Source of the DNA: Mesorhizobium sp. 113-3-3
Lineage (GTDB): Bacteria; Pseudomonadota; Alphaproteobacteria; Rhizobiales; Rhizobiaceae
Assembly (NCBI RefSeq): GCF_016756495.1
Contig: NZ_AP023243.1
Coordinates: 6,700,501 to 6,764,500 of the forward strand
Length of the DNA: 64,000 nt
Direction: 5' to 3'
Shown: positions 10,249-33,079 of the stretch, piece after piece
Layout of the letters: each line of letters opens with the position of its first letter
How positions within the stretch are numbered: position 1 is the stretch's first letter
Made by a program: the position numbers and the translations under genes
The notes under the pieces: model-generated
Told to the model about the DNA's origin: nothing
The model's database searches: none
The model's input: the letters and a program-made list of their open reading frames with translations, nothing else

Positions 10249-10892
10249 GGGTGCCTTTGTGGATAAATTGTTGAATTCGTAGTCAGAACAGTACCATTGG
10301 CGCCGACGCCGTCTTCAGTAAGATTGCCATATTCTTGCAGAAAAGCTGCGTTTCAGGCTAATTTTACGCATCAATGCTTAAATCTTGCTCCGATATACCG
10401 GGAAAGCATGGGGCGGGTCGCGGGCGGCTGCCTGCTGCTTTCGGGCGGGAAAAGAAAAAAGCTTGCGCAAGGACACCACCATTCCGTGTCAAAAATCGCA
10501 GCTCGTCTCGTGGTGGCCGGTAGCTTTGTCCATTACTTCCCAAGCGCGATTCGCTGAGAAAAACGATGATCAATCTCGTATTCCGCTGGATTAATCCGGC
10601 TGACTGGCCCGAGTTGGCCAACGGGCTAAGTTCTGTAGAGTGGTCGGTGGCTACCAATGCTTCAGGGAGGGGCGAAGCCGCTGAGGTGCGAAATGGGCGC
10701 GGCCCTGCGCTTTTCAGGCTGCACCCTGCTCTCCTTGATAGCAAGAGATCACTGAAGACGGGCGACCTCCACGGCGTATATCGACTATGACCCAACGAAC
10801 AACCACACATCCAATCGCAAGGCATATTCCAAAGAGGCCCGCGGTCGCGAGGAAGCACCGGCGTCACCTCGTTTCGCCGCAAGGCGTTAGGT
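10249..10892. other. Intergenic stretch with operator-like site
   Basis: About 640 bases between the M24 gene and the AsnC terminator hairpin. It contains the motif copy at 10336-10350 and otherwise only frames without family resemblance. Confidence 0.5.
10336..10350. promoter_or_regulatory. Operator-like 15-bp motif, site a
   Basis: TGCAGAAAAGCTGCG, an imperfect inverted repeat (TGCAG/CTGCG) 86 bases upstream of the M24 start codon at 10248. It matches the motif found before seven other positions in this block (see the finding on the shared motif). Confidence 0.5.
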
Positions 10893-10924
10893 AAGGGGAC
10901 CTATTCTCGAGAAAAGGTCCCCTT
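10893..10924. terminator. Strong hairpin downstream of the AsnC gene
   Basis: AAGGGGACCT at 10893-10902 pairs perfectly with AGGTCCCCTT at 10915-10924; the loop itself contains the palindrome TTCTCGAGAA. It starts 20 bases beyond the AsnC stop. The T-tract is weak on both sides, so it may be a bidirectional or Rho-assisted terminator. Confidence 0.6.
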
Positions 10925-10944
10925 TGATAGCTGCTACGGCAACT

Positions 10945-11409
10945 CTAGCCATCTATCGGGATGGCCAGAGAGGTCTTAGTTCGGTCCATGACCACCATCG
11001 TGCTGAAACCTTTCACATCGCTGTTCTCGTAGAAAAACCGACGCGAGAAGGACTCGTACTCTGCTAAGTCGCGGACGGAAACGAGCAACACAAAGTCCGC
11101 GTTTCCAGTGACGAAATAGGCACTGACAATCTCAGGTGTCCTTCGTATCGCCTGCTTGAACCGGTCGATAATATCGTAGCGGTCGCGCTCGAGGTCGATC
11201 GACACCAGCAACATTAGTGGCCGGCCTACAGCATCTGGAGATATCACTGAGACGTCCGCCTGGATCACTCCTTCGTCACGAAGGCGCTTCAAGCGCCTTT
11301 GGCAGGCGGTTGCCGACACCCCTGCAAGACTGCCTAACTCTTCTGTCGTGAGCCGATTATTTTGCTGAACAGCGACGAGGAGTTTACGATCAATCCGGTC
11401 CAGTTCCAC
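10945..11409 (-). CDS. Lrp/AsnC-family transcriptional regulator
   Basis: A 154-residue feast/famine regulator. The N-terminal winged HTH covers residues about 3-60 (DRKLLVAVQQNNRLTTEEL, recognition segment VSATACQRRLKRLRDEGVI), followed by a linker and the RAM ligand-binding domain at about 68-150 (RTPEIVSAYFVTGNADFVLL). Length is typical. The start is GTG at 11409, preceded by a GAGG-type site. Motif copy b lies 29 bases upstream, fitting autoregulation. It sits between the M24 hydrolase and the DMFase-like gene, all on the minus strand. In ectoine degradation clusters the regulator (DoeX/AsnC) has the same role; I infer it senses an intermediate of the pathway. A dead relative is at 1506-1865. 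Confidence 0.93.
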   Translation of the reverse strand: MELDRIDRKLLVAVQQNNRLTTEELGSLAGVSATACQRRLKRLRDEGVIQADVSVISPDAVGRPLMLLVSIDLERDRYDIIDRFKQAIRRTPEIVSAYFVTGNADFVLLVSVRDLAEYESFSRRFFYENSDVKGFSTMVVMDRTKTSLAIPIDG

Positions 11410-11437
11410 CCCGAAACCTCACTTATCACGACTGACA

Positions 11438-11452
11438 CGCAGGTTTACTGCA
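11438..11452. promoter_or_regulatory. Operator-like 15-bp motif, site b
   Basis: CGCAGGTTTACTGCA, half-sites GCAG/CTGC, 29 bases before the GTG of the AsnC gene; fits an autoregulatory site. Confidence 0.55.
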
Positions 11453-11553
11453 TGAGGGGAATTCTTACCGCTCGCTGCCTATTGGCGAAAGCCCAATCTG
11501 GGATGCGCTGCGGATTTCTCCTGAAAAAAACAAAGGTGGCATTTTAGGCACCG

Positions 11554-13800
11554 TCAACCGGAAAGGCATGGCTCTAATTCTATTAGCCGGCGCTCCAACT
11601 CATCGTATCGAGCTAAGGACTCGCGAACCACGTTTTCCAAAAGCCTTGAGATGTCGTTATCGTACTCATTGAATGGGAGACTTCCGCAGAACAGGATCGA
11701 GCCCGTCGAAAAGACAAAATTCCCCAGCTGCTTGGGAACGATGCACAAATCTGCTCGTACTTGGGCCGACTGCCACTCCGCCGTGTGGATTTCCGGCCAG
11801 AACGCCTTCTCCGGTGCGCAGAAATATTCCCCAGGAATACCTTCAGTGGTAGCAAGCACTACCGTCTCGGGAGGCGTACCGAGGCTTGCGTCGACGACAT
11901 CGACCTCAAAACCTGCGGCGCCACCTCCCGAGTACCCGAAGCCACCGAATTCTTTGCTTTGGATGCCTTCGAAAAACCTTGCGAACCGCTCATCGTACGA
12001 TGCCGGGGTCCGGACGAAGTGCGTACCAAGGAAGTCGCCATGCGCCGACATTCCTATTCCGAATATTCTTTGCGGAGGTCTGTCGTTCTTCAACCACAGC
12101 CCACCATTCTGGCCGTCAAATGCGTGGAAATACTCGCCCGGCTCACACTCCCATCCTCTTGCTCCAGCCTCTGCCCGTCGGATTTCAATGGCACCAGGAA
12201 ACAGCTCGTTGGTTGCGATGCGCCAGTAAAAGCCATTACCTCCCAAATATCCGAAGCCTCCACCGCTGGAGATATAACTTTCGATAGCGTCGAGAGTCCT
12301 CTTCGTGTGGTATTCCGGATGCGTAACCGTGAGTACCAGCGAGTAGCCCGCTAACGCGGCCGTCCCTTCATCCTGCAAATCATGGTCCGTGACAATATCA
12401 ACAGAAATGCCCTTGGCGTCGCACCAAGAAATTAGGTGCATATCAGCCGGGAAATGCCGAAGACCAGAGCCATAATGGTCTACATAGGCGAAATATCCGG
12501 GACGCATGTTGAGTTGCGGTCGAAGTATGGAACTGAACATAATACCAGTGCCATCGGCATGCAGATCATAAAGGGACCGACCGTATTGAGGATATTCCGC
12601 TGGATGGTAGGGGTATGATTTCCATTCGTCTCGGCGTTTGACATATTCGGCGCCGAAATTTGAACGAGGGTGATTTGCATAGGCAACGTAGGTGAAAGTC
12701 GAAAAAAGTATGGCAATCCTTGCCCTACAAGACTGCTTGGACGGCCGCACAAAGAATGGAATGATATCCTCGGCACCGCCGCATCTCAGTCGGATGCCGT
12801 AAACACCGCTGGGCAGGTCTGGCGCTGTATCAAAGGTGAAATCTGTGTCCCACTTCGCATCATAGAGATCGGTTTCATGGAAATGGACCGCCGCATACTC
12901 GTCGGGCGCGTGGCGCCAGCACATCTCCGTGCCCGACCAGTGCGAGCCTCGTACGGCTCTAGTGGGCAAGTTGAAAAGTTGTCCATCCAGCCTCAACGGG
13001 CCAGTGTCACGGATTGTCGGCGTCGACATTTCCAGACCAAAGTTCCAACATGCGAGCATCGCATCAGGCATTGGCTGTGTCCCGTCAAGCCTTTGCGGCA
13101 ATTGAGACCCACGAAGGAGAGTAGGTGCTTCAAGCCGACCGTTGAAAAAAAATTCGAACATCGAGCAGTCAGCATCGCGCGGCGTCGCAGCCAGGACCAC
13201 CTTTTCATTTGCGCTTTTCTGATTGTATCCGAAGACTTGGTGTCCGACGATTTGTAATCCGTCAGCTACATTGTACCCGACGACATCCAACGCATGGCCA
13301 TGCACTGCAATGCGCAGTTCGTACCACTGGCCAATTCTTAAGCTGAGTTCCTTGAAACTCACTTGGGCTGGCGTGCGACAGACGAGCTGGGTATCTGTGA
13401 TGGCGATGGAAACAGATATGCCCTCCAAGTCGGCGAAGGAGAACAAGGTCTGCGGAGACGAACGTAGCAGCCGAGGCTGAAACCGGATGGAGAACGTATT
13501 TTCCCTCAGATCTGCGCCTTGCAGAGGGATGACTCCATAAGAACCCAGCTGTATTTGCTTGGAGACCGAAGGATATGCCCCCTCAAAAGGCGAGGCAACC
13601 GGCCTTAGGTCCAAACCGGGTCCCTTTGGGTTAGGGTCTGCTGAGAAAATCCTCACTAGGTCTGCAGCGTAGTCCTGCGTAAAGCTGCTGGAAACTTTGA
13701 CCTCGATGCTTTCACCCGCACGGACCGAGAGGCGGTTGGTATATCCAATCAGACAAGCGGTTTGGATATCCCCCGCGCGAGGTGAAAGCGACGCATTCAT
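11554..13800 (-). CDS. N,N-dimethylformamidase large-subunit-like protein
   Basis: A 748-residue protein resembling the large (beta) subunit of N,N-dimethylformamidase, an iron amidohydrolase that releases dimethylamine from DMF. The N-terminal third has an immunoglobulin/LamG-like beta-sandwich (about residues 90-270); the C-terminal half (about 330-735) carries the family core with motifs such as FSTFTYVAYANHP, YGRSLYDLHADGTG, and VLTVTHPEYHTKRTLDAIES, with a glutamine-amidotransferase-like fold. ATG at 13800 is preferred over the upstream TTG. No small subunit gene is visible nearby. It ends a same-strand run racemase, binding protein, GNAT, this gene, with gaps of 84-154 bp. It is likely to hydrolyse an amide or N-methylated amide, but the substrate is unknown. 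Confidence 0.75.
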   Translation of the reverse strand: MNASLSPRAGDIQTACLIGYTNRLSVRAGESIEVKVSSSFTQDYAADLVRIFSADPNPKGPGLDLRPVASPFEGAYPSVSKQIQLGSYGVIPLQGADLRENTFSIRFQPRLLRSSPQTLFSFADLEGISVSIAITDTQLVCRTPAQVSFKELSLRIGQWYELRIAVHGHALDVVGYNVADGLQIVGHQVFGYNQKSANEKVVLAATPRDADCSMFEFFFNGRLEAPTLLRGSQLPQRLDGTQPMPDAMLACWNFGLEMSTPTIRDTGPLRLDGQLFNLPTRAVRGSHWSGTEMCWRHAPDEYAAVHFHETDLYDAKWDTDFTFDTAPDLPSGVYGIRLRCGGAEDIIPFFVRPSKQSCRARIAILFSTFTYVAYANHPRSNFGAEYVKRRDEWKSYPYHPAEYPQYGRSLYDLHADGTGIMFSSILRPQLNMRPGYFAYVDHYGSGLRHFPADMHLISWCDAKGISVDIVTDHDLQDEGTAALAGYSLVLTVTHPEYHTKRTLDAIESYISSGGGFGYLGGNGFYWRIATNELFPGAIEIRRAEAGARGWECEPGEYFHAFDGQNGGLWLKNDRPPQRIFGIGMSAHGDFLGTHFVRTPASYDERFARFFEGIQSKEFGGFGYSGGGAAGFEVDVVDASLGTPPETVVLATTEGIPGEYFCAPEKAFWPEIHTAEWQSAQVRADLCIVPKQLGNFVFSTGSILFCGSLPFNEYDNDISRLLENVVRESLARYDELERRLIELEPCLSG

Positions 13801-13887
13801 CAAAGGGTACCTGAGCCTTGCTGTGTCAACCGTACGTGTATGACAAGCGTTCTGAGTACGGTGTCTCTTCGTTCTTCAGATGTCACA

Positions 13888-14415
13888 TTACCCAGGAATG
13901 GGTAGAACTTCGTCGGCTCTCCCGCTTTTCCAATCGGACCGCTCAAAGGCCATGATCAGCTCGTCGCGAAGCTTTCCGCGAAAAATAGAGCACCCCCGCG
14001 CCACGCTTTCAAGCTTGAAACCGATCGCCTCGTAACTTCTCCTCGCGTTCAGATTTTCGGGAAAACAACCAAGCCGAAGGCGGTCCACCAAAGATTCGGC
14101 AAATACAGTTTCGATTAGCGCAGACATCATGGCGCGACCGTACCCACCCCCTTGTTTCGTCACGGCGAGCCGCTTAACGAAAATCGAAGTTTCCGCTGCT
14201 CGCCAACCATTCGAGATCGCGAAGCCCACAGGGATGCCGTCAGATTCCGCCAGAAAATATCGATAGTCCGGATCAGCGATGGCGGTCAGATGCTGAGACT
14301 CGTTCCATTGGTCGATAAAATCCCTATACGCTGGGATCTGCTCTGTTCGGATAATGAACGAAATGTCGGTGGGCAAAGCCCGCCTGAGAAAAACGCACGG
14401 TCGCCTGTCCGCCAT
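13888..14415 (-). CDS. GNAT-family N-acetyltransferase
   Basis: About 175 residues with a GNAT fold: the central strand-helix SIFVKRLAVTKQGGGYGRAM contains the acetyl-CoA pyrophosphate loop (Q-G-G-G-Y-G), followed by NLNARRSYEAIGFK, the typical last-strand region. ATG at 14415 is chosen; a TTG three codons upstream is nearer to the GAGGAA site and also possible. It lies between the binding-protein gene and the DMFase-like gene on the same strand, so probably co-transcribed. It may acetylate a pathway amine or a toxic intermediate; the substrate cannot be told. Confidence 0.82.
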   Translation of the reverse strand: MADRRPCVFLRRALPTDISFIIRTEQIPAYRDFIDQWNESQHLTAIADPDYRYFLAESDGIPVGFAISNGWRAAETSIFVKRLAVTKQGGGYGRAMMSALIETVFAESLVDRLRLGCFPENLNARRSYEAIGFKLESVARGCSIFRGKLRDELIMAFERSDWKSGRADEVLPIPG

Positions 14416-14510
14416 AGTACCCAAAGTTCCTCACCAATAGGCATCTGCGGGGTACGCAGGCTGCACCAGACGCAAGTTAGCGCCCGGTGCAACCCGTCCC
14501 TATTGAGCTG

Positions 14511-15747: not shown

Positions 15748-16452
15748 TTACTTACCGATTGCCGCTAGCATCATTCTGCAGAGCAAAGTGAGGTCGTATA
15801 CTGGGAGGTTTGTGAGGCGGCGAATAGCCGGAGAAACAGCGGGGAAAACCGCACATTCGAACAAAATAGCCGCAATTTCCGGGTGCTCTTCCCGCAACTT
15901 CATCACACGCTCAGAGACGACTTTCTCCAGACCCACGACGTCAAACGGAGGCGCCGGCATCTTCAGCTCGTCGTGCCAAAACTGGCTACCCTCAATACCG
16001 CCGACAACAACCCTCGCCCGGTCTTGCGGGTCGCTCAAGCCGATCATATCTTCGCTTACGTAGTTTGAGTCGTACGTGAGAACGGCAATCTTCGCCGGCG
16101 CCGGCAGCTGCTTCAATAGCATCGGCAGCAGAAGCATGCTGGACATCGCCACCGGAACTTGGACTGAAGAGGCCACCGCACCTTGCAATCGTATTGTGAA
16201 ACCGCAATTTGAACTGATGGCCACAGCGCCTTGCTCCACCAAGCGTCGCGCCGCTGCGATGTAGGAGGGCTCCAAAGCTGGGTCACCGCGCAAAACGCGC
16301 TCTCCAAAAGAACCTTCAGGCACCTCGGTGATCGTGGGGAAATCGATCGAGGCCGGGTTTTGGATAGAGCCGACTTCGTTTTCCCTGGCGGGATCGCGCG
16401 GTCCCTGGTCAAGCGCCAATACGCCAAGCGAAGGTGTGAGCTTAGATTCCAT
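15748..16452 (-). CDS. Asp/Glu racemase-superfamily protein (EutA/hydantoin racemase-like)
   Basis: A 234-residue cytoplasmic protein of the aspartate/glutamate racemase superfamily. Two Cys are placed as expected for the two-base mechanism: SSNCGF (C83) and LFECAVFP (C200). The start SLGVLALDQGPRDPARE and the segment AKIAVLTYDSN are family-like. Ectoine utilisation clusters of rhizobia carry a relative, EutA; hydantoin racemases and arylmalonate decarboxylase are others, but the latter have one Cys. First gene of a likely transcription unit with the binding protein, GNAT and DMFase-like genes. A perfect palindromic motif copy lies at 16573-16587. Exact reaction unknown. Confidence 0.8.
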   Translation of the reverse strand: MESKLTPSLGVLALDQGPRDPARENEVGSIQNPASIDFPTITEVPEGSFGERVLRGDPALEPSYIAAARRLVEQGAVAISSNCGFTIRLQGAVASSVQVPVAMSSMLLLPMLLKQLPAPAKIAVLTYDSNYVSEDMIGLSDPQDRARVVVGGIEGSQFWHDELKMPAPPFDVVGLEKVVSERVMKLREEHPEIAAILFECAVFPAVSPAIRRLTNLPVYDLTLLCRMMLAAIGK

Positions 16453-16572: not shown

Positions 16573-16587
16573 TGCAGGAAACCTGCA
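16573..16587. promoter_or_regulatory. Operator-like 15-bp motif, site c (perfect palindrome)
   Basis: TGCAGGAAACCTGCA, a perfect 6-3-6 inverted repeat about 120 bases upstream of the racemase gene. The best member of the shared motif set. Confidence 0.6.
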
Positions 16588-21745: not shown

Positions 21746-22193
21746 ACAGCCTCAACTTGCCGCGAGCCAGCAGGCCACATACCAGGCGCACAATTGCGAT
21801 GTTGTTGTCCCTGCCATCCTAACAAGGCTCAGGACGTAAAACTCGGGATTTCACCGTCCATAATGTTGAAGTCCGGCATATTTCGAGCGCTCTGCGCATG
21901 AAAGCCGCGAAGCCAAAGATTTTTCGGGTTCTTTTGCACCGAAACGGTTATGTTGGGCGGGGGCGGAGAGGACGGCGAGCTTACAACACAACTTGGTGGC
22001 GCCTAGCTGCGTCTGTGAACACCGCCGGGCGATGATTACAAAAGATCAGCAGCGTCCCTTCGCTACATTGGCCTGCGGCGCAGAAATTATGCGGCTCGCC
22101 GGCTCTCAAAGCTGCAAGACGGACGGGTGGGACGTGTAACCTGCTGGGGCCGCCCACGATGGCGTCTGGTTTGCTCAACTTTGGATTACGATC
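21746..22193. promoter_or_regulatory. Divergent intergenic region between soxB and the class V aminotransferase
   Basis: A 448-bp region from which both transcription units must start. It contains motif copy d at 22079-22093. No convincing sigma70 boxes could be named with confidence. Confidence 0.45.
22079..22093. promoter_or_regulatory. Operator-like 15-bp motif, site d
   Basis: CGCAGAAATTATGCG, half-sites CGCA/TGCG, 100 bases upstream of the class V aminotransferase start and about 335 bases from soxB. Confidence 0.45.
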
Positions 22194-23411
22194 TTGAATC
22201 AAACAGTTGCGACTGAAAGCCCCCCCCCGTTTCTTGACGCCATCCGCAAAGATTTCCCGGCGACCAGTGAGTTTATCTACATGGATGTTGCGAACCAGGG
22301 CCTCATATCGCTAGCAGTCCGTGATTCCATCAATGAGCACCTTAACAACAGGCTCGTCGGCATCAATGACGAACTGCACCAGTTGGCTAAGGTAGAGGAG
22401 ACCCGCGAGCTTTTCGCCCGCTTTATCGGCGCTCAGACAAATGAGATCGCCCTGACGAAAAACGCTTCGGAGGGGATTAACATCATTGCCAATGCATTCG
22501 CTTGGAAAGAGGGCGACAACATAATTCTCTGCCCGAAACTCGAACACGCCAACAACATTCTCCCATGGCTGCAATTAAAGGCTCGTCAGGGGGTTGAAGT
22601 CCGGACGATCGAGCCACTCAACGGGCAGATTGACGTCGAAGCTTTGGGTAAAGCCATCGACAGCCGAACCCGCGTTGTTACGATCGCCACGGTGACGATG
22701 GTGCCCGGCTTCCGGACCGAGGTCTCGGCAATTGCCAGGCTTTGCAACCAAAAGGGGGTCTTCCTCCTAGCAGACGCCACGCAATCAGTAGGCATTCTTG
22801 CCACTGATGTGCGCGATCTGGGCATCGATGGGCTGGCTGTCTCGACAGTCAAGGGCCTTATGGGTCTTTACGGATCCGGCTTTTTGTATTGCCGGCGGCA
22901 ATGGGCCGACCGGCTTCTGCCGGCCTATCTTGCGAGATTCAGCGTAGATCTCGGCGAGGCTTTGGAATCTGCTCCGGTATCCGACACGTTTACTCTCCGC
23001 CCTGGCGCAACCCGCTTTGACATCGGGCACTATAACTTCCCGGGTCTAATCGCGGTAACAGCATCCATCCGGCAGCTGAGTGCCGTCGGAATGGAAAGGA
23101 TCGAGCGCCACGTAACCGGTCTGGCGGCCCGTCTCGCAACCGGTCTTCATGGTCTGGGCATGCCTGTATGCGGGGGACTGCTTCGACCAGGCTCCAGCAG
23201 TATTGTGGCGGTAGGCGACATGTCACTGCTCGGCGGTCAATCATCACACCAGTTAGATGTGGCATCGTTGCGGGATCATCTGGCGCAGCACAAGATCATC
23301 GCATCCGCCCGCCGTGGGATGCTGCGGTTTTCACTTCATCTCTACAATACGGCCGATGAGGTCGATCAAGTTATTGACATAGCTAAGGGCTGGTTGACCC
23401 GCCCCGCCTGA
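22194..23411 (+). CDS. Class V PLP-dependent aminotransferase / desulfurase-like enzyme
   Basis: A 405-residue fold-type I PLP enzyme of the class V / cysteine-desulfurase-like superfamily (which includes IscS-like, isopenicillin-N-epimerase-like and kynureninase-like proteins). Features: FIYMDVANQGLIS near 27-39, TKNASEGINIIANAF near 82-96, PLP-Asp in FLLADATQSVGI, and Schiff-base Lys in AVSTVKGLMGLYGSGF (about residue 222). The predicted start is TTG at 22194, weak in ribosome binding site; the first ATG in frame (22281) would remove residues near the cofactor pocket. A 28-bp gap separates it from the M20 gene downstream, so they form an operon. Its reaction is unknown; an epimerase, lyase or aminotransferase is possible. 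Confidence 0.8.
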   Translation: MNQTVATESPPPFLDAIRKDFPATSEFIYMDVANQGLISLAVRDSINEHLNNRLVGINDELHQLAKVEETRELFARFIGAQTNEIALTKNASEGINIIANAFAWKEGDNIILCPKLEHANNILPWLQLKARQGVEVRTIEPLNGQIDVEALGKAIDSRTRVVTIATVTMVPGFRTEVSAIARLCNQKGVFLLADATQSVGILATDVRDLGIDGLAVSTVKGLMGLYGSGFLYCRRQWADRLLPAYLARFSVDLGEALESAPVSDTFTLRPGATRFDIGHYNFPGLIAVTASIRQLSAVGMERIERHVTGLAARLATGLHGLGMPVCGGLLRPGSSSIVAVGDMSLLGGQSSHQLDVASLRDHLAQHKIIASARRGMLRFSLHLYNTADEVDQVIDIAKGWLTRPA

Positions 23412-23439: not shown

Positions 23440-24579
23440 ATGCCTTCGCCCGATCCACAGCTGGTATCGCTCCTACAGGACTTGACGCGCATTGAGAGCG
23501 TCAACCCCTCTCTGTCCAAGACCGGGAGCGGTGAACGGGCTATGGCTCTTTACCTGCAGAAATATTGCGAGGAACGCGGGTTAGCTTGTGAGCTTCAGGA
23601 AGTGAAGGACGGGCGCCCGAATTTGGTGGCTTGGGTGCCTGGAACGGATCCCGACCGGCGCATCCTGTTCATTGCCCACACGGATACCGTGCCGGTTGAG
23701 AAATGGGAGGATAATCCGTTTTCGGGAGATATCCGAGACGGGCTTCTCCACGGCCGGGGCAGCTGTGATACCAAAGGCTCCCTCGCAGCAATGCTAAGGG
23801 CACTGTGCACGCTTGGAGCACGAAAACCGAAAGCCACGGTAGTCCTGGTGGCCAGTATTGACGAGGAATACCGCAAAATCGGCGCTCGCGCCGTAGCAGA
23901 TTCCGGTGTTGCCTACGAAGCCGCCGTCGTCGGCGAGCCAACAAGCTTGGAATTGGTAGTAGCCCACAAAGGGTCAGTCCGCTGGCAGGTCGAAGTCGAA
24001 GGTATACCGGTTCATTCTTCGAGACCGCACCTGGGCGTCAACGCGATCACCGGGATGGCTCGGATCATATTAGCGCTCGAAGAGCTGAACAGGAACCTAA
24101 GCTTACGCGAAAATGCGCTCGTCGGCCCCCCTGCCCTGACCGTAAGCCTGATTGAAGGTGGGATAGAACTGACAACCGTTCCCCCGGCCTGCCGGATCTG
24201 GATCGACCGTCGACTAACTCCTGGAGAGTCTCCACAGGGAGCCATTCAAGAGGTCGAGGATATTCTCAAACACTTCCGTGAAAGCGAATACAAGATTATC
24301 GCCCGCTCACTCCTTCCGGCGCTGGAAGACCCCGCTCCCTTAAGTGCCGAAGGTAGCCGAATTGCGGAGGTGGCCTCCCTAATCTGCAAAGATGTGGCAG
24401 GAACTGGCAGGTTTACGGGTGCGCCTTGGGGAACGGATGCTAGCCAACTCGCTGGGGTATCCTGTGTAGTGATTGGCCCCGGTAGCATGGCTCAAGCCCA
24501 TACCAGCAACGAGTATATTACCTTGGATCAGCTGGATTATGCTGTCCAAATCTACCAACGCATAATGCTGGAATATTGA
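23440..24579 (+). CDS. M20 family deacylase (ArgE/DapE-like)
   Basis: A 379-residue zinc amidohydrolase related to acetylornithine deacetylase and succinyl-DAP desuccinylase. Metal and catalytic residues are in place: FIAHTDTVP (H80, D82), GRGSCDTKGS (D110), IDEEYRKIGA (E142/E143), VVGEPTSLE (E166) and a late His in SMAQAHTSNEY. The lid domain spans about 175-285. ATG start with AAGAGG upstream. Operon with the class V enzyme. In ectoine degradation the acetyl-diaminobutyrate deacetylase (DoeB/EutE) belongs to a different family (AstE/AspA), not found here; I infer this M20 enzyme could do an equivalent deacylation. Confidence 0.88.
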   Translation: MPSPDPQLVSLLQDLTRIESVNPSLSKTGSGERAMALYLQKYCEERGLACELQEVKDGRPNLVAWVPGTDPDRRILFIAHTDTVPVEKWEDNPFSGDIRDGLLHGRGSCDTKGSLAAMLRALCTLGARKPKATVVLVASIDEEYRKIGARAVADSGVAYEAAVVGEPTSLELVVAHKGSVRWQVEVEGIPVHSSRPHLGVNAITGMARIILALEELNRNLSLRENALVGPPALTVSLIEGGIELTTVPPACRIWIDRRLTPGESPQGAIQEVEDILKHFRESEYKIIARSLLPALEDPAPLSAEGSRIAEVASLICKDVAGTGRFTGAPWGTDASQLAGVSCVVIGPGSMAQAHTSNEYITLDQLDYAVQIYQRIMLEY

Positions 24580-24666: not shown

Positions 24667-24681
24667 TGCAGAATTTCGGCG
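24667..24681. promoter_or_regulatory. Operator-like 15-bp motif, site e
   Basis: TGCAGAATTTCGGCG, one base off the motif in the right half-site; within a longer inverted repeat TTTTGC-N11-GCAAAA. It lies about 140 bases upstream of the EctB-like gene. Confidence 0.45.
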
Positions 24682-24819
24682 CAAAAGACCGCAATTCAGC
24701 GACGAACGGTGAGGCGGCCTTGTTACGTTCAGCCAAGGGCAGCGCCTGACGTTTAGCGCCAGCGCCCTGTGTTCCCGGCCTTCCTTGTCTTGGGCCGGCC
24801 GTCAAAACAAGGATTCGCT

Positions 24820-26118
24820 ATGAACAAGCCACTCACTCCCATCAATGACACGAGCCTGGAGCTATTTGATCGGCTCGAATCTGAAGTCCGCAGCTATGTC
24901 CGCTCCTTTCCGGTTTTATTCGACCACGCGTCCAACACAAAGCTGGTGGGCGCAGACGGTCGTGAGTTCATCGATTTCTTCGGTGGGGCGGGCGCTCTCA
25001 ATTATGGGCATAACAATCCCGCTTTCAAACAGGCTCTGCTGGACTACATCGAGCGCGACGGCATCGTCCACAGTCTGGATCTCGCCACGACGGCGAAAAG
25101 GGCTTTCATGGAGGCCTTTGAGAAGCATATTCTCCTGCCGCGTGGGCTTAACTACAAGCTGCAGTTCCCGGGACCCACCGGCACGAATGCCGTTGAAGCA
25201 GCCCTGAAGCTCGCTCGCCTCGCGACAGGTAGATCAAACGTTGTGGCTTTCACCAACGGGTTTCACGGCGTCAGTGTCGGCGCCCTTGCGGCGACCGGCT
25301 ACAAGGAGTTCCGCACGGCGGCCGGTATCTCACTCGCGAACGTCACGATGCTGCCGTACGATGGGTACCTCGGCGAAGGAATCGACACCCTAGATTATTT
25401 CGAAAACCTTCTCCTTGATCCGAACAGCGGCTTAGACAAGCCCGCTGCTGTCATTCTGGAAGCAGTTCAGGGCGAAGGTGGCATTAACATCGCCAGCACG
25501 CCTTGGCTGAAGCGGCTGCGCGAACTGACAACCCAGCATGGCATCTTGCTCATCTGCGATGAAATTCAGGCCGGTATAGGCCGCACGGGCAAGTTCTTCG
25601 CCTTTGAGACCTCCGGGATCATCCCCGACATTGTAACTCTGTCAAAGTCGCTGTCGGCTTATGGCACACCAATGTCTCTTATCCTGATGAAGCCGGAGGT
25701 CGACGTGTGGGCCCCAGCGGCACACACCGGCACGTTCCGGGGCAACAATCTGGCCTTCATCACCGCGCGCAGGGCAATTGAAGTTTACTGGTCAGACAAC
25801 AAGTTTGAAAAGCAAATTGCCGAGAAATCAGCCGTATTGGCTGAATCTCTCAAAGCGATCGCCGAAGAATTTTCGGCCCTCGGACTCACCGTCCGCGGTC
25901 GTGGACTGATGTTTGGTCTTGTTTGCCAAAAACATCGCCACTTCGCATCCGCAGTGTCGAAGGAAGCTCTAAGCCGTGGCTTGGTGATTGAAACGGCGGG
26001 ATCGTACGGAGAAGTGGTAAAGTTCATGACAGCGCTCACGATCACTGAAGAAGATCTCCGCCGCGGCCTTTCGGTCATTCGCGATAGTGTCGAAACCGTG
26101 AGCAAAACCCTCAACTAG
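24820..26118 (+). CDS. EctB-like diaminobutyrate aminotransferase (class III)
   Basis: A 432-residue class III aminotransferase closest in look to EctB (L-2,4-diaminobutyrate:2-oxoglutarate/glutamate aminotransferase). EctB-type signatures: GGAGALNYGHNNP near 55-67, LQFPGPTGTNAVEAALKLAR near 114-133, LLICDEIQAGIGRTG (D247) and VTLSKSLSAYG (Schiff-base K276). ATG at 24820 preceded by AAGGA is better than the upstream in-frame start. No ectA, ectC or ectD adjoins, so a biosynthetic ectoine role is unlikely; in a catabolic block it would interconvert diaminobutyrate and aspartate semialdehyde. The aldehyde dehydrogenase 160 bp downstream fits the next step. A second relative is at 62845-64000. 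Confidence 0.88.
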   Translation: MNKPLTPINDTSLELFDRLESEVRSYVRSFPVLFDHASNTKLVGADGREFIDFFGGAGALNYGHNNPAFKQALLDYIERDGIVHSLDLATTAKRAFMEAFEKHILLPRGLNYKLQFPGPTGTNAVEAALKLARLATGRSNVVAFTNGFHGVSVGALAATGYKEFRTAAGISLANVTMLPYDGYLGEGIDTLDYFENLLLDPNSGLDKPAAVILEAVQGEGGINIASTPWLKRLRELTTQHGILLICDEIQAGIGRTGKFFAFETSGIIPDIVTLSKSLSAYGTPMSLILMKPEVDVWAPAAHTGTFRGNNLAFITARRAIEVYWSDNKFEKQIAEKSAVLAESLKAIAEEFSALGLTVRGRGLMFGLVCQKHRHFASAVSKEALSRGLVIETAGSYGEVVKFMTALTITEEDLRRGLSVIRDSVETVSKTLN

Positions 26119-26278: not shown

Positions 26279-27739
26279 ATGGCCGGCAGCGAGGTTCTTA
26301 AGAACTACATCGATGGAGAATGGCGAGACTCCTCCACCGGAGGCCGCATCGAGGTCGACGACCCCTCCACTGGGGAAGTTTTTGCAGTCGTTGCCGATGC
26401 AGGCCGTGACGAGGTCGAACTCGCCGTGAAAGCGGCCCAGCGTGTGTTCCGCGAACGGATTCTGATCGATATGCACCCCTATGATCGGGGAAGGATGCTT
26501 TTCCGCATCGCTGAACAGATTGAAAGCCGAAGTGCACAACTGGCGGAAATGCTCTGCGACGATACGGGGAAGGCCCTGAACGTAGCCGTATCGGAAGTCC
26601 AGACCACTGTAAGATATCTTCGCTATTACGGCGGCCTGGCGGACAAGCATGAAGGCCGGTCGATCCCGCGTGGCGCTAATCTTGTCGATTACACAATTCC
26701 CAGCCCGTTTGGGGTTTCAGGCCATATTGTTCCGTGGAACTTTCCACTGGAACTGACCGCAAGGTCCCTTGCCTGCGCCTTGGCTACGGGCAACTCGGTG
26801 GTCGTGAAATCGCCGGAACTTGCCCCCCTCTCGGGTGTCGCCATGGCTGTGGCCTGTGAGGCTGCGGGTGTGCCGGCCGGGGCGGTAAATGTTCTGAGCG
26901 GCTATGGGCACACTGCGGGCCAGTCATTGATCGATCATCCAGAAGTTCGGCACCTGGTCTTTACAGGTTCGATGGCCACTGGACAGAGGGTCTTGCGCGC
27001 TGCAGCAGAGCGTATCGTACCATGCATCATGGAGCTGGGCGGCAAATCAGCGGCGATTGTCCACGCCGATGCTGACCTCAATGCAGTATTGGCATCCATC
27101 CGGATCGGCACCTTCATGAACGCTGGACAGAATTGCAACGGCCTTACCCGACTATTGGTTGATCGCTCCATTGCCCAGGAACTCATCGAAAGGCTCAAGG
27201 ATCGCGTTGAATCCTTGTCGGTCGGCCGAGGCCGCGACGATTGCGACATCACACCGCTGATCTCACGGAAACAACAGACTAGTGTTGCGCGAGCCTGCCA
27301 GACTGCCCAGCAACAGGGTGCTCGCACGGTTACCGGCGGAGCTGCCCTGTCGGACCGCAGCGGGTATTACGTGGGAGCCACAGTGTTCGCCGACGTCCGA
27401 CCTGAAAGCGACCTCTTCCAAAAGGAGACCTTCGGTCCTGTGCTGGCGATCACAACTTTCGACGGTGCCGAAGAGGCAGTTAATTTGTCCAACGGGACTG
27501 ACCAGGGACTGGCAGCAGGCGTTTTCACCCGAGATTTAGACAAGGCTCTCTGGACTGCAGAGCGGCTGTGGGCAGGGCACGTCTACGTTAATGGCTGGTA
27601 CGTAAGCGGTGTGGAAACGCCCTTTGGCGGGATCAACAAATCAGGCTACGGCCGGGAAAAGGGCGTGGAAGCACTCGACGGTTACGTGCAGACCCGGAAT
27701 GTGGGGATACAGGTTTCGAACCCCAATATCGTCGCCTGA
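26279..27739 (+). CDS. NAD(P)-dependent aldehyde dehydrogenase
   Basis: A 486-residue ALDH-superfamily enzyme that oxidises an aldehyde to the acid. Catalytic residues: N153 in VPWNFPLE, K177 in VVVKSPELAP, E252 in MELGGKSA, and the nucleophile C286 in NAGQNCNGLTR; the Rossmann FTGSMATGQRV segment precedes. ATG start. It follows the EctB-like gene in the same direction with a 160-bp gap. In ectoine breakdown DoeC performs aspartate semialdehyde to aspartate; this enzyme could take that role, or oxidise a betaine-type aldehyde. From memory NGR234 y4uC is similar; not verified. Confidence 0.9.
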   Translation: MAGSEVLKNYIDGEWRDSSTGGRIEVDDPSTGEVFAVVADAGRDEVELAVKAAQRVFRERILIDMHPYDRGRMLFRIAEQIESRSAQLAEMLCDDTGKALNVAVSEVQTTVRYLRYYGGLADKHEGRSIPRGANLVDYTIPSPFGVSGHIVPWNFPLELTARSLACALATGNSVVVKSPELAPLSGVAMAVACEAAGVPAGAVNVLSGYGHTAGQSLIDHPEVRHLVFTGSMATGQRVLRAAAERIVPCIMELGGKSAAIVHADADLNAVLASIRIGTFMNAGQNCNGLTRLLVDRSIAQELIERLKDRVESLSVGRGRDDCDITPLISRKQQTSVARACQTAQQQGARTVTGGAALSDRSGYYVGATVFADVRPESDLFQKETFGPVLAITTFDGAEEAVNLSNGTDQGLAAGVFTRDLDKALWTAERLWAGHVYVNGWYVSGVETPFGGINKSGYGREKGVEALDGYVQTRNVGIQVSNPNIVA

Positions 27740-27904
27740 GTTATCACCGGTATGAGAGGGCAGCGATCCCAGGAGCCAAATCCTCGGTCCGCTGCCCCCA
27801 ATTTAGCCGTCTTGAGCTCAACGTCCAACGGGTTATCGGGTGGTCAGAAGATCGCCGTCCAATGTTGACGCCCCTTATGTAATGCGCGGCGGTCAGCGTT
27901 CGCT

Positions 27905-28260: not shown

Positions 28261-28374
28261 ACCGCGATGGGAACCTCCATGCAAATTTTGCAGGGCCGTT
28301 AGATGCGGAGAGTATATACCGTTCCTTTGCCGGCACCAGCTGGTCACGTTTTCGCATGTGTGTGAGAGGTTCGC

Positions 28375-28500: not shown

Positions 28501-28584
28501 TGGAGATAACCCCGGCGAGGCCGACAATCAGACGCAGCAACCTGCCCGGGACAAACTGAACAGTCCCGCCTTTAGCGCCTTAGT

Positions 28585-29472
28585 CTACGATTTGCACAGA
28601 TCCGCTGTTTTTGTGCCATCTGGCAGATTGATTTTGGTGTAGCCGTACTTGCTGACCGCGTTCATCATCTGTTCCGTGCCCATATAGGCTTTCAGCGCGG
28701 CATTGAAAGCGTCCACGTCAGCCTGCTGGCTGGGGAGCAACGCCAGACCCGGATAGGCCCGACCGCCCGGTGCTTCGAAAGGTTCGGCGAGCTCGAGTGC
28801 AGGATCCATGTCGACTGACTCCTTGAGCGTAAAGTAGGAGCCGCTACCGGCTGAAGCGCGGCCCGACTTGACGGCCTGGACGACCTCGGGATTGCCGGCT
28901 ACCTGCATCGTCCTGTCATCGGGTATGCCAGCATCTATCGCCTGCTTAACGAAGACTGATCCCGTGGCTATGACCAAGGTCAGACCCTTGTCGAGAATGT
29001 CCTTATAGGAGTGCAAGCCCTCAGGATTGCCCTTTGGCACCACCAGTGCATCAGAGAAGGTCCCGAGTGGTTCGGTGAACAGAACGTTGCGGCATCGCTC
29101 CGGGGTGATGTACATGCCGCCCGTAATCACATCAAAACGTCCGGCTTGGAGACCAGGAACGAGGGAGCCCCACTCAGTGAGGATGGGCTCCACCTTGGCC
29201 GTACCGAGCTTTTTCAGAACATCGATCGTAATGGCGTTCATAAAGCCGAGCGGCTCACCATTCTTCCCCGGGTACGCCCAAGGCAACTCGTTGGAAAATC
29301 CTATCCTGACCGGCTCGCCTTTCTTGATCTTTTCCAAAAGCGACTGCGCAGACGCCGGAAAAGCGTTTGCGACGACAGCCGCAGCCGCAATACCGGCCGC
29401 GACAAGAGTTTTGAAAAAGATGCCAGCAGCCGAGCGGGGCGACGATGTTCGCGAGCATTTTGCAGATTCCAT
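28585..29472 (-). CDS. ehuB: Periplasmic binding protein, family 3 (EhuB-like)
   Basis: A 295-residue polar-amino-acid type binding protein resembling EhuB, the ectoine/hydroxyectoine receptor. A signal peptide (hydrophobic core about residues 22-40, cleavage near PASAQS) exports it to the periplasm. Mature start EPVRIGFSNELPWAYPG, then the signature region LQAGRFDVITGGMYITPERC. ATG with an excellent AGGAGG 7 bases upstream. The permease genes (ehuC, ehuD) are not found and the ATPase gene next to it is a wreck, so the protein is orphaned unless it works with another importer. Motif copies f and g lie upstream. Confidence in substrate is moderate. Confidence 0.82.
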   Translation of the reverse strand: MESAKCSRTSSPRSAAGIFFKTLVAAGIAAAAVVANAFPASAQSLLEKIKKGEPVRIGFSNELPWAYPGKNGEPLGFMNAITIDVLKKLGTAKVEPILTEWGSLVPGLQAGRFDVITGGMYITPERCRNVLFTEPLGTFSDALVVPKGNPEGLHSYKDILDKGLTLVIATGSVFVKQAIDAGIPDDRTMQVAGNPEVVQAVKSGRASAGSGSYFTLKESVDMDPALELAEPFEAPGGRAYPGLALLPSQQADVDAFNAALKAYMGTEQMMNAVSKYGYTKINLPDGTKTADLCKS

Positions 29473-29650
29473 TAATACCTCCTATTGAGTGAGCCATGAA
29501 CCAAAGCGGTTTAGCCTCAACACCGATGGTATGGGCCGTTCACCGTTCCCCTCATTGCGGCGCCTACACTGGGCAGGGACGAGCATCTGTGTGCCGGGGA
29601 CCAGGATGCCACCCCTATCGGTCCTTTAGCAGCGAACCTCAACGTTCAAA

Positions 29651-29665
29651 CGCATGTTTCCTGCG
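29651..29665. promoter_or_regulatory. Operator-like 15-bp motif, site f
   Basis: CGCATGTTTCCTGCG, half-sites CGCA/TGCG, about 180 bases upstream of the EhuB-like gene. A separate palindrome TTTCCGG-N7-CCGGAAA follows at 29669-29695. Confidence 0.45.
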
Positions 29666-29860
29666 TACTTTCCGGCAAATGGCCGGAAATCCGATTTTGC
29701 GGAATTCCTCTCGTCTGGGTGAGGGAAATTAAGGTCATTGCATTTGACAGGCGAGATGTCAGGACCGGTCATCGTGTCCGAGGCCTGCCGTGTTGCTGCG
29801 GGGGAAATTTCATTAGAAGCTTGCCGATCGCCAGCTTTCGCAGGCATTTTTCCCGAAATT

Positions 29861-29875
29861 CGCCGCAAACCTGCA
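29861..29875. promoter_or_regulatory. Operator-like 15-bp motif, site g
   Basis: CGCCGCAAACCTGCA in the divergent region between the EhuB-like gene and the importer operon at 30253. The right half-site is perfect, the left has one change. Confidence 0.35.
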
Positions 29876-30252
29876 TGGATGTGCAAATTACGAGCTTTTT
29901 CCTTAGTCGCTCCCTGTTACCATCTCTAGAATTAGCGAGCCATTCCGAAATGCGGGCCCAGGCTTCATCGGCCGGCACGTACCAACTTCAATCTGAAAGG
30001 TAGAAGGGCTAGGCTTACGTAAAAAAATACCGTCGTTTGCTGCGAATGGGGCAGCAAGCAACCTTACGTCATTGTCATAAAAACAAACGGGAACCAAAAA
30101 TGATCAACGCCGCATTCTTTTTTTGGCGAAGGCCGCAGGCTACCTGCTTACTGGCCGCCGGTGACGGGACAGACACAGCCGCGATGCCGTAAGCAAGGTT
30201 GCCGTAAGCATAGCGTCTACGCGCAGTCTTTTTCACAAGCTGATTGAGTCCT

Positions 30253-31101
30253 ATGAAAGCCGACAAAAACCAAGGTATATTGCTTCTGCCAGCAGGGGCC
30301 CTGTTCATCTTCCTACTCGCGCTGCCCCTGGTTCTGGCAGGTGTCGAAAGCTTTCGTGAATTTACGCCTGGCCGCATCGGTTCGGTGGGTGGTGCGCCGT
30401 TGACACTTGCGAGCTATGCCGAGCTTTTGCATCCGGTTTACATCCAATATTTTGCGTTGACGTATGCACTCTCCTTTATTTCCTCCATTGTCGCCATTCT
30501 CGTCGCGTTTCCCATTGCCTACTACATAAGCCGCCGCAGCACGCCGACAGTCAGAAAAGGCGTAATCTTCATCACTGTGGGCCTGCTGTTCCTCAGTCAT
30601 CTCGTTCGAATCTATGCGATTGAGCTGACGTTCGGATCGACCGGAATGTTCGCGCCACTTCTCACCGCCTTGGGAATTAGCATGAATAGCCGCGAGTACA
30701 TCTACTTTATGATTGTAGCCGGTCTGCTGCAGTACTCCATACCTATGTCAATGCTCATCCTGATCGGTACCATTCAGAATCTCAATCCGCGTCTACTGGA
30801 GGCATCTCAGTCCCTAGGCACTTCCGCCTTTCGATCCCATGTCAACATCACAATACCTTTATGCGTTCGAGGCATTGTGTCTGTATTTCTAGTGTCTATG
30901 ACTATGGGTATAAGCGCGTTTGCAATACCCTGGATACTCGGTCGCGGTCGCGTCCTATTCGTTTCAAACCTTATATACAGCCGATTCAATGAGGTTGCGA
31001 ATTTCCCGAGCGGCGCAGCAATCTCCGTGATTATGATTATACTTTGCGTGGTTATGATCTACATTGTCTCACGTGTCGCAACACTAGCAGATCGGTCGTA
31101 A
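30253..31101 (+). CDS. ABC importer permease, PotB-like
   Basis: An inner-membrane permease of about 282 residues with six predicted helices, of the spermidine/putrescine (PotB) type. First helix ILLLPAGALFIFLLALPLVL; the EAA loop that docks the ATPase reads LEASQSLGTSAFRSH. The start is ATG at 30253; a TTG three codons earlier is possible. It is followed 4 bases later by the second permease and then the ATPase. No binding protein gene is in this operon; the PotD-like protein at 14511-15593 is the likely partner. The substrate could be any small cationic or zwitterionic molecule. Confidence 0.9.
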   Translation: MKADKNQGILLLPAGALFIFLLALPLVLAGVESFREFTPGRIGSVGGAPLTLASYAELLHPVYIQYFALTYALSFISSIVAILVAFPIAYYISRRSTPTVRKGVIFITVGLLFLSHLVRIYAIELTFGSTGMFAPLLTALGISMNSREYIYFMIVAGLLQYSIPMSMLILIGTIQNLNPRLLEASQSLGTSAFRSHVNITIPLCVRGIVSVFLVSMTMGISAFAIPWILGRGRVLFVSNLIYSRFNEVANFPSGAAISVIMIILCVVMIYIVSRVATLADRS

Positions 31102-31105
31102 TCCC

Positions 31106-31933
31106 ATGTCACGGAAACAACTGGCTGATCGTTTGATGACGCTGGTGGTTGGACTAATTTTCCTCCTCACCGCGGTTTTCCTGATACTTCCCGTAGTGAC
31201 GACGGTTCTAATGGCCTTCGACTCTCGTGATTATCTGGGTCCGTTTCCTCCTCAAGGCCTCTCGCTCCAGTGGTTCGACAAGCTATGGGATGAACAATAC
31301 CTCTGGGCCGGGTTCTACACCAGCTTGATCGTGGCCTCGGCTGCGACGCTGATTTCTGCAATCGTCGGGACTCTTGCCGCCGTCGCAATGAGTAGGATGA
31401 CCGGTGCAGCCCGGGACGTCTTGTCGTCCCTGTTCCTGTCGCCGCTCATCGTTCCCGGCGTGATTATCGGTTTCGCATTGCTGATGCTGTTTTCAGCACT
31501 TGGTATCGGTTCCCCCCTCATCCGACTGATCGCAGGCCACCTTGTAATCACCATTCCCTACAGCATTCGGATGGCGTTAATAGGCCTCCTCGGTGTCAAG
31601 AGCTCGTTGCGCGAAGCCGCGTTGAGCTTGGGAGCCAATGAAATTCAGGCATTTCTTACGATTAACTTTCCATTGGCCAAAAGCAGCATTGCAGCCGGAG
31701 CGGTGTTTGCGTTCGCTTTCTCCTTGGATGATCTCGCGATCAGCTTGTTTCTCAGCGATTTCAATACCTTCACCCTACCCGTCGCACTCGTTGGGCTTTT
31801 GCGGTCGAGTTTTGATCTTACCATTGCTGCGGCTGCAGTGGGTTTGATGGGCGTAACTCTCATTTTGCTGCTGGTTCTCGACCGGACCGTCGGTCTCGAC
31901 CGTGTTGTCGGCCTCAGCGTTGATAAGGCGTAA
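31106..31933 (+). CDS. ABC importer permease, PotC-like
   Basis: A 275-residue membrane permease, second half of the heterodimeric channel. Hydrophobic segments include VVGLIFLLTAVFLILPVV near the N-terminus; the EAA loop reads LREAALSLGANEIQAF around residue 175-190, and SLDDLAISLFL is a PotC-type signature. ATG start four bases after the upstream stop; the ATPase starts five bases after this stop. The tight spacing shows a single operon. Confidence 0.92.
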   Translation: MSRKQLADRLMTLVVGLIFLLTAVFLILPVVTTVLMAFDSRDYLGPFPPQGLSLQWFDKLWDEQYLWAGFYTSLIVASAATLISAIVGTLAAVAMSRMTGAARDVLSSLFLSPLIVPGVIIGFALLMLFSALGIGSPLIRLIAGHLVITIPYSIRMALIGLLGVKSSLREAALSLGANEIQAFLTINFPLAKSSIAAGAVFAFAFSLDDLAISLFLSDFNTFTLPVALVGLLRSSFDLTIAAAAVGLMGVTLILLLVLDRTVGLDRVVGLSVDKA

Positions 31934-31937
31934 ATTC

Positions 31938-33011
31938 ATGAATGTTCTTGAGCTGAAGCGGGTATCCAAGTCATACGGGAGTTTTCTGGCGGTCGATGAT
32001 GTATCCCTCACTATCGAAAAGGGGGCGATACTATCGCTTCTCGGCCCCAGTGGCTGTGGAAAAACCACGACCTTGCGCATGATTGCTGGCTTTACAGCCC
32101 CTAATTCAGGCTCAGTCATCATCAACGGGTCTGATGTCGGTCATCTGAAGCCTTACGATCGCAACGTGGGTCTGGTTTTCCAGGACTACGCACTTTTCCC
32201 TCATATGACCGTGTTCCAGAACGTTGCCTATGGGATGAAGTACAGGGGGATCGCTGCCTCCGAGATTCCTGCTCGTGTTGCCAGAATGCTCGGGCTCGTA
32301 AGGCTCGGGAGCATGGAAGGGCGATATCCTCGCGAGTTGAGTGGAGGTCAACAGCAACGCGTCGCGCTGGCACGTGCCTTAGCCACTGATCCCCAGGTCG
32401 TACTACTAGATGAGCCATTGTCCGCCCTGGATGCCAAGCTGCGTTTGGAACTTCGCCTCGAATTGAAGGAAATTCTGAGGTCGGTGGAGGCAACTACAAT
32501 CGTGGTGACCCACGATCAGGAAGAAGCGCTCAGTCTGGGAGACGAGGTCGTTGTCATGCGGGATGGACGAATTGCACAACGCGGATCCCCCACGGCGATT
32601 TACAACGACCCTGCGGATCGATTTGTCGCTGAGTTCGTCGGCAGATCAAATTGGTTTAACGCAAGCAACTGGCGCGACGCAGCTAATGGCTTTGTTAATT
32701 ACGAAAGCGTCGCGGGCATCTCGATATGCGGCCAAGCCAAGCCAAACACATCCGGCAAGGTTGACCTTTGCATCAGGCCTGAAAACATCGACGTACTGGC
32801 CGCCGGAGAGCCGGCGACTATGGACGAAAACACCATGCCCGGTACCGTGGTCGACGTCGCTCCGTTGGGCGCCGATGTCCATATCGTCATCGATATTGAC
32901 CACGGCCCAAGAGTCCTCGCCATTCAAAAGAGCGGCAGCCAACGGACAAGTTTCGGAGTAGGCCAATCCGTTAGGATCGGTTTCTCACCAGCCGATGTGC
33001 TGGTTTTCTGA
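31938..33011 (+). CDS. ABC importer ATPase, PotA-like
   Basis: A 357-residue ATP-hydrolysing subunit. Walker A GPSGCGKTTTLRMIAG near 36-51, Q-loop VFQDYALFPHM, signature LSGGQQQRVALARAL near 136, Walker B VVLLDEPLSALD, switch His in VVTHDQEEAL, and a C-terminal TOBE domain (about 275-357). ATG at 31938 begins just after the permease stop; an in-frame ATG at 31902 would overlap the permease. Drives the PotBC-type channel; motifs are all intact so the importer should be active. Confidence 0.93.
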   Translation: MNVLELKRVSKSYGSFLAVDDVSLTIEKGAILSLLGPSGCGKTTTLRMIAGFTAPNSGSVIINGSDVGHLKPYDRNVGLVFQDYALFPHMTVFQNVAYGMKYRGIAASEIPARVARMLGLVRLGSMEGRYPRELSGGQQQRVALARALATDPQVVLLDEPLSALDAKLRLELRLELKEILRSVEATTIVVTHDQEEALSLGDEVVVMRDGRIAQRGSPTAIYNDPADRFVAEFVGRSNWFNASNWRDAANGFVNYESVAGISICGQAKPNTSGKVDLCIRPENIDVLAAGEPATMDENTMPGTVVDVAPLGADVHIVIDIDHGPRVLAIQKSGSQRTSFGVGQSVRIGFSPADVLVF

Positions 33012-33064
33012 ACAGAGGCTGGATCTTGCGCCGGGCGAACTCCAGCCTGCCAGAAAGACTAAAA

Positions 33065-33079
33065 TGCGGTTTTCCTGCG
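33065..33079. promoter_or_regulatory. Operator-like 15-bp motif, site h
   Basis: TGCGGTTTTCCTGCG, inside the longer inverted repeat AAATGCG-N9-CGCATTT (33062-33084), about 105 bases upstream of the DoeA-like gene. A weaker second copy, TGCGGGATTTTTGCC, is at 33094-33108, 29 bases on. Confidence 0.55.

Follow-up and report, generated by a model that had tools for sequence, protein, structure and literature searches.

A palindromic 15-bp motif is the probable operator of an autoregulated Lrp/AsnC regulon of ectoine-like catabolic genes in Mesorhizobium

In a 64,000-nucleotide stretch of Mesorhizobium sp. 113-3-3 (contig NZ_AP023243.1, bases 6700501–6764500 of a 7.73-Mb genome in three contigs; hereafter the window), related 15-bp inverted repeats precede scattered ectoine-like catabolic and uptake genes and also the gene of an Lrp/AsnC family regulator at 10945–11409 (window coordinates). 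Comparative sequence analysis makes it very probable that these 15-mers are operators of this AsnC protein or of its subfamily, and that they define an autoregulated regulon. The original prediction had listed eight such 15-mers; all are present letter for letter where it placed them, each once in the window.

The motif was recovered from other genomes. The relatives comprised the best 80 of 496 loci coding for AsnC relatives in named genomes, together with three plasmid loci. The 150-bp regions upstream of asnC (82 sequences; L044, from a near-identical M. erdmanii, was left out) were cut to 61 by similarity, and a palindromic expectation-maximization search was performed with 60 random starts for real runs and 40 for shuffled runs. 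From these 61 non-redundant upstreams, none of which came from the window's genome, a motif of width 15, cGCAGaAaTtCTGCg, was obtained. It was used by 89% of the sequences with a log-likelihood of 251, compared with 49–53 in eight shuffled sets. It is an imperfect inverted repeat with an AT-rich centre, and its length falls within the 13–17 bp that part of PMC2995911 gives for Lrp/AsnC family sites, which are described there as inverted repeats with an AT centre and a two- or three-turn spacing. The inverted repeat of about 15 bp with an A/T centre that had been proposed from the window alone is the same palindrome. A symmetrised matrix built from the eight 15-mers also ranks those eight high; this is circular, and independent evidence was therefore sought.

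The matrix from the 61 upstreams was used to scan the window at a score of at least 13, with 37 stretches of 20 kb (740 kb) from the same contig as background. Between 5 and 34 kb there were 9 intergenic matches against 0.31 expected (Poisson 5e-11) and 0 coding matches against 1.06 expected. The remaining window held 1 intergenic match (0.54 expected) and 2 coding matches (1.09 expected), and the 60 kb to its left held 3 intergenic (0.87 expected) and 1 coding (1.94 expected). Background rates were similar for coding and intergenic DNA (4.8 and 4.4 per 100 kb), so the intergenic excess is special to this cluster. Equally good sites inside genes, proposed as a check on the original prediction, are thus absent from 5–34 kb and near expectation elsewhere in the window, though one at 63431 scores high. 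The nine intergenic matches are seven of the eight listed 15-mers plus sites at 5026 and 8219. The sites are as follows, with scores from the independent matrix and, for the eight, ranks within the window.

11438..11452: operator 28 bp ahead of the asnC start codon; score 16.7, rank 5
10336..10350: operator upstream of a DoeA-like M24 hydrolase gene, 87 bp before it; score 15.8, rank 7
16573..16587: operator upstream of an Asp/Glu racemase-family gene, 120 bp before it; score 18.3, rank 1, the top of the window
22079..22093: operator between soxB (minus strand) and a class V aminotransferase gene (plus strand), 100 bp before the latter; score 17.4, rank 3
24667..24681: operator upstream of an EctB-like diaminobutyrate (DABA) transaminase gene, 87 bp before it; score 17.2, rank 4
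29651..29665: operator upstream of an EhuB-like binding protein gene, 178 bp before it; score 14.8, rank 9
29861..29875: weak candidate operator, 368 bp before importer genes 30244–33011 (plus strand); score 11.6, rank 20
33065..33079: candidate operator upstream of doeA, 103 bp before it; score 13.2, rank 12, intermediate
5026..5040: operator absent from the earlier list, about 120 bp before a class III aminotransferase gene, 3506–4906 (minus strand); score 15.9
8189..8203: operator absent from the earlier list, first of a 30-bp pair with 8219; score 12.0
8219..8233: operator absent from the earlier list, second of the pair with 8189; score 15.7

The sites lie outside real genes and upstream of transcription units, as had been claimed; only 29861 falls inside an open reading frame (ORF), one of 94 codons that is taken as spurious. 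The same site is the weak member of the original eight, the other seven of which score at least 13; an extra match close to it, at 30134, scores 12.0. All eight were real positions, and the list was incomplete. It missed 5026, the 8189/8219 pair and one or two sites left of the window, at contig position 6681023 before an amino-acid-type ABC importer and at 6685358 before an S15 peptidase gene that is followed by an amidase gene. The nearest minus-strand gene to 8219 is an MFS gene (6732–7727) about 490 bp away, and the target of this site is uncertain.

A strict consensus, YGCAGNWWWNCTGCR, is fitted by three of the eight listed sites. It matches seven times in the genome, and the reversed pattern used as control matches once. 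Four of the seven matches fall within 36 kb, namely 10336, 11438 and 16573 in the window and 6681023, which lies 19.5 kb to its left and played no part in making the consensus. When one mismatch is allowed, there are 181 genome matches against 108 for the control; weak single sites elsewhere therefore mean little, and a match to the pattern is not diagnostic by itself. Across seven Mesorhizobium genomes carrying an asnC ortholog (E ≤ 1e-50; G030 stands for G008 and G022, which were left out because they are nearly identical to it), 12 of 27 strict matches lie at most 30 kb from the ortholog, where about 0.3 would be expected. The corresponding counts in the more distant G040 and G059 are 0 of 5 and 0 of 9, and ten genomes with no asnC ortholog at that cut-off hold 23 strict matches in all. 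One strict match, TGCAGTATTCCTGCG (either strand), occurs once each in all ten searched Mesorhizobium genomes lacking this asnC at E ≤ 1e-50 (G001, G003–G005, G009, G011, G016, G029, G031 and G033) and in five of nine that have it (G008, G020, G021, G030 and G034).

The AsnC protein is 99% identical to that of its closest named relative, M. erdmanii USDA 3471, and 54–77% identical to members of its own subfamily outside M. erdmanii. The regions upstream of the relatives' asnC genes were scored with a matrix made from seven window sites, 11438 being excluded. A score of at least 10 was reached by 38 of 61, compared with 2.1 in shuffles and 46 of 650 other ORF starts in the same loci; among non-Bradyrhizobium loci the count was 32 of 40. 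All but two of the 38 sites are 2–48 bp before the start codon, the two being at 71 and 108. Several loci, among them those of Bosea (L107), Rhizobium (L111), Agrobacterium (L083, L101), Pseudochelatococcus (L092) and a Pseudomonas (L082), have no better match than the asnC site anywhere in a stretch of up to 20 kb. The upstream regions of six of the other AsnC-family genes of the window's own genome score at most 8.5, the 72%-identical paralog giving 1.7. Because the same motif fronts the regulator gene in most non-Bradyrhizobium relatives, it is very probably the binding site of the nearby regulator. These data support the AsnC protein at 10945–11409, the candidate named originally, as the probable regulator. 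The regulator and the predicted targets are listed here.

10945..11409, minus strand: asnC, Lrp/AsnC family regulator of 154 amino acids, with an AsnC-type helix-turn-helix and an AsnC ligand-binding domain
9070..10248, minus strand: predicted target, DoeA-like M24 hydrolase (Pfam PF00557; NF038259 E 1.5e-99, yet under the cut-off)
15748..16452, minus strand: predicted target, racemase-family protein (PRK07475, under the cut-off)
22194..23411, plus strand: predicted target, class V aminotransferase, followed by an M20 deacylase gene at 23440–24579
24769..26118, plus strand: predicted target, EctB, diaminobutyrate-2-oxoglutarate transaminase (TIGR02407, 608 bits, above the cut-off)
28585..29472, minus strand: predicted target, EhuB-type solute-binding protein (TIGR02995, 221 bits, above the cut-off)
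33183..34364, plus strand: predicted target, ectoine hydrolase DoeA (TIGR02993, 632 bits, above the cut-off)

The AsnC protein matches Pfam PF13404, PF13412 and PF01037 above the cut-off, has the domain composition and the length (about 150 residues) of the Lrp/AsnC family, and counts E. coli Lrp (2gqq) among its PDB relatives. Families above their curated cut-offs in the cluster include doeA (twice), ectB, ehuB, soxA and soxB. An aldehyde dehydrogenase gene (26279–27739) comes after the EctB gene. The cluster contains three DoeA-type M24 hydrolases (9070–10248, 33183–34364 and 36551–37732), two of them above the DoeA cut-off. Part of a third AsnC gene belonging to this subfamily survives at 1536–1854 as two overlapping fragments, 57% and 59% identical over residues 41–119 and 113–146, from which most of the helix-turn-helix is gone.

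Conservation in orthologous clusters had been proposed as a further check, and the sites are indeed kept, above all before related asnC genes. The independent matrix was applied to the 350 bp upstream of target homologs (at least 48% identity over at least half the length) from 20 regions or loci, some of them in related genomes; 2.85% of background windows reach 12. At this threshold, sites were found before 13 of 18 asnC genes and before all nine class V aminotransferase homologs; in three related genomes among the latter (G017, G020 and G034), this site and that of the divergent asnC are one and the same. All three DoeA2 homologs have a site. Its distance from the start is 87 bp in the window, 87 bp in L045 and 84 bp in L125, despite diverged flanks; in L059 it is 94 bp. 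For EctB the count is three of four, the fourth scoring 11.7. Six of eight usable EhuB upstreams reach 12, one at exactly 12.0 and one (G030) within the end of the preceding ORF; the G034 row was excluded, its gene being truncated by the region edge. One of two racemase homologs has a site, at 105 bp (G030). For the candidate at 33065, DoeA-like genes of G017, G020 and G034, 39–40% identical, carry a strong site at the start or upstream. Among second, internal or other genes, none of ten M20argE homologs has a site of at least 12; neither do two MFS homologs or the single rows of ABC, ALDH and DoeA1b. In related clusters, a site is thus much commoner before the first gene of an operon than before the second. 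When the upstreams of four target families were aligned, the flanks proved too diverged to show whether the site precedes the promoter or overlaps it.

Many of these genes also have a site in two plasmid clusters. On a plasmid of Sinorhizobium sp. CCBAU 05631 (L124), sites precede the genes for the class V aminotransferase, a GMC oxidoreductase, a UPF0262 protein and an arylmalonate decarboxylase, as well as both ehuB genes and ectB; the Glu/Leu dehydrogenase and amidohydrolase genes of that cluster have none. The plasmid cluster of R. jaguaris (L125) has sites before the racemase gene, the class V aminotransferase gene, DoeA2 and both ehuB genes, and in the UPF0262/asnC gap; its genes for the class III aminotransferase, GNAT and the Glu/Leu dehydrogenase lack one. 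The NGR234 plasmid pNGR234a (L126), which carries nodA, codes for a related AsnC alongside ehuBCDA, eutB, eutC and an M24 gene; sites stand before its asnC and an M20 gene.

In relatives the sites also come in pairs at a preferred spacing. Pairs with one score of at least 12 and the other of at least 7, 16–199 bp apart, were pooled over the loci, including those whose asnC site had trained the matrix. Of 178 distinct pairs, 64 are at 30/31 bp and 12 at 61/62 bp, with a mean of 0.57 at every other distance; beyond asnC promoters, 26 of 117 are at 30/31 bp. In the background of the window's own genome, scored at somewhat different thresholds, none of 24 pairs lies at 29–33 bp. The flanks of paired sites are on average only 23% identical, and the pairs are therefore not tandem duplications. 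The 30/31-bp peak in the pooled loci agrees with Lrp-type sites, which are placed two or three helical turns apart in parts of PMC2995911 and PMC10201364. Sequence statistics establish the motif itself, how it is conserved, where it stands relative to these genes and how it is spaced in relatives.

Several observations weigh against an AsnC regulon. The coding match at 63431 scores 18.0 and ranks second in the window; it is taken as chance. Three of the seven strict matches in the genome (703438, 4625485 and 6328299) are inside predicted ORFs, the first of only 104 codons. In the seven Mesorhizobium genomes the reversed control has 38 matches against the 27 strict ones, so it is only the position of matches, and not their number, that is raised in relatives. 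Only 6 of 21 Bradyrhizobium asnC upstreams pass the threshold of 10, and six loci outside that genus (L045, L048, L064, L070, L071 and L115) score at most 7.1. No site of at least 11 was found in the 350 bp upstream of asnC in L124, G014 and G021; the strict match near asnC in G014 falls inside an ORF. A site of at least 12 precedes only two of ten class III aminotransferase homologs, this gene standing behind an aldehyde dehydrogenase gene in many relatives, and one of seven homologs of the internal M20amh. In the window itself, 8189/8219 is the only strong 30-bp pair among 12 own-genome sites examined, so pairing belongs to the subfamily more than to this cluster. Finally, a second AsnC, a member of this subfamily with 72% identity, is encoded about 61 kb from the window gene (contig positions 6649940–6650389) and has no site upstream (best score 1.7).

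This second protein could share the sites, and the alternative that they belong to it, alone or jointly, with two paralogs on one operator set, is rather unlikely but has arguments on its side. Its recognition region is similar, and G030 likewise has two AsnC paralogs, each preceded by a site. The sites surround the window gene, however, which has one of its own where the second gene has none. The alternative also overlaps the preferred assignment to AsnC 10945–11409, since that assignment allows for the subfamily.

It is improbable that the regulator is an ordinary ectoine AsnC (DoeX) and the motif its operator. The adjoining doeA, ectB and ehuB-like genes would fit such an identity, and the best 15-mer of the H. 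elongata DoeX-bound fragment F3, whose sequence was taken from part of PMC3187862, is of a similar kind, if poorly palindromic (score 4.9, shuffle P 0.06). Orthology is not supported by the presumed ectoine AsnC of S. meliloti 1021, which is only 27% identical (from an unannotated record, the gene being presumed from its position by the doeA-ehu region and published gene order). In the 33-kb S. meliloti cluster stretch, all five matches of at least 12 (best 12.6) lie in predicted ORFs, and no strong intergenic site was found. The window AsnC is thus probably not the canonical ectoine AsnC.

Control by an unrelated ectoine-catabolism regulator such as the MocR-type EnuR/EutR is very improbable. 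The gene content does resemble the EnuR-controlled ectoine clusters described in parts of PMC5924519 and PMC5320631. The window contains no exact match to the EnuR operator given in part of PMC8739950, ATTGTn6ACAAT, and the lone match with one mismatch is inside a gene. No MocR gene appears in the incomplete annotation of L124 and L125, and the window ORFs were only partly scanned for other regulators. Moreover, the motif follows asnC itself across genera. Least credible are chance palindromes or a repetitive intergenic element, since, common as one-mismatch matches are genome-wide, the independently trained matrix finds a marked excess in this cluster, flanks are not repeated and the distance to the DoeA2 start codon is kept; 29861 may still be a chance match.

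If the 15-mers are operators of the AsnC subfamily, a model can be inferred for binding by AsnC 10945–11409, its oligomer, its effector and the direction of regulation. An AsnC dimer would read two YGCAG half-sites across the A/T centre. Where a promoter has two or three sites 30–31 bp apart, dimers would lie on one helix face, and the DNA would probably be wrapped around an Lrp-like oligomer. AsnC would bind its own promoter, and autorepression is probable because most relatives with a site have it 2–48 bp from the start codon. It would also bind the promoters for EhuB-type uptake, DoeA-type M24 hydrolases, M20 deacylases, the EctB-type DABA transaminase, the aldehyde dehydrogenase, the class V aminotransferase and the racemase-family protein. 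By analogy, AsnC most likely activates these catabolic promoters, and would do so when a substrate or intermediate, such as a DABA-type amino acid, is present.

The cluster lies close to nodulation genes, nodA (near C1:6565749) being 145 kb from asnC. nodA was present in 11 of 15 genomes or records searched, including the three plasmids L124–L126, and was not found in the searched records of S. meliloti pSymB, Phyllobacterium sophorae, Bosea and Pseudochelatococcus. The proximity of nodA and the presence of closely related regulators on nodA-bearing plasmids and in nodA-bearing genomes suggest a symbiosis-linked catabolic trait. A broader idea, offered tentatively, is that a feast/famine subfamily on rhizobial symbiosis islands and plasmids has replaced EnuR and DoeX as master of an ectoine-like, DABA-forming gene set, and that nodule bacteria use a cyclic amino acid from the plant or nodule as food, with a single DNA-wrapping regulator, its operators phased at 30/31 bp, in control. 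No report of this operator was found in the open-access listings and abstract openings searched; the search was not made by motif letters, and RegPrecise and most subscription journals were outside its scope. For a widespread Lrp/AsnC subfamily with no study in those listings, the analysis supplies a precise operator and a list of predicted targets, and scattered catabolic genes near nodulation genes become one testable regulon.

The predicted regulon can be compared with several known systems. Autoregulation is a habit of Lrp/AsnC regulators, and here too a site precedes the regulator's own gene. The Lrp consensus, YAGHAWATTWTDCTR, has CAG-like bases in another register, which differs from the half-site YGCAG within the 15-mer here. 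E. coli Lrp and other Lrp/AsnC proteins share with the present system a two-domain protein, a short inverted repeat with an AT centre and sites on one helix face at about three turns, the last as described in parts of PMC2995911 and PMC10201364. The canonical ectoine clusters of H. elongata, R. pomeroyi and S. meliloti likewise have an AsnC-family gene amid ectoine-type catabolic and uptake genes, as asnC sits here among doe/eut/ehu genes. In H. elongata, part of PMC3187862 has DoeX binding a 46-nucleotide fragment upstream of doeA, and part of PMC5924519 calls the cue sensed by the ectoine AsnC unclear. The window cluster differs from the DoeX clusters in that no EnuR partner was seen, and it indicates that an AsnC gene within an ectoine-like cluster is not always DoeX. 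EnuR/EutR, a MocR protein, controls ectoine-type gene sets in Rhizobiales according to part of PMC5320631; the gene set is alike, and the protein family and operator are different. PutR of Alphaproteobacteria is, in the part of PMC6168545 that concerns it, an Lrp/AsnC protein adjoining an amino-acid catabolic gene that is activated with the substrate, a likeness to the arrangement proposed here; it has one main target gene there, with neither a motif nor a binding site mentioned, whereas about nine promoters carry a predicted operator in the present cluster.

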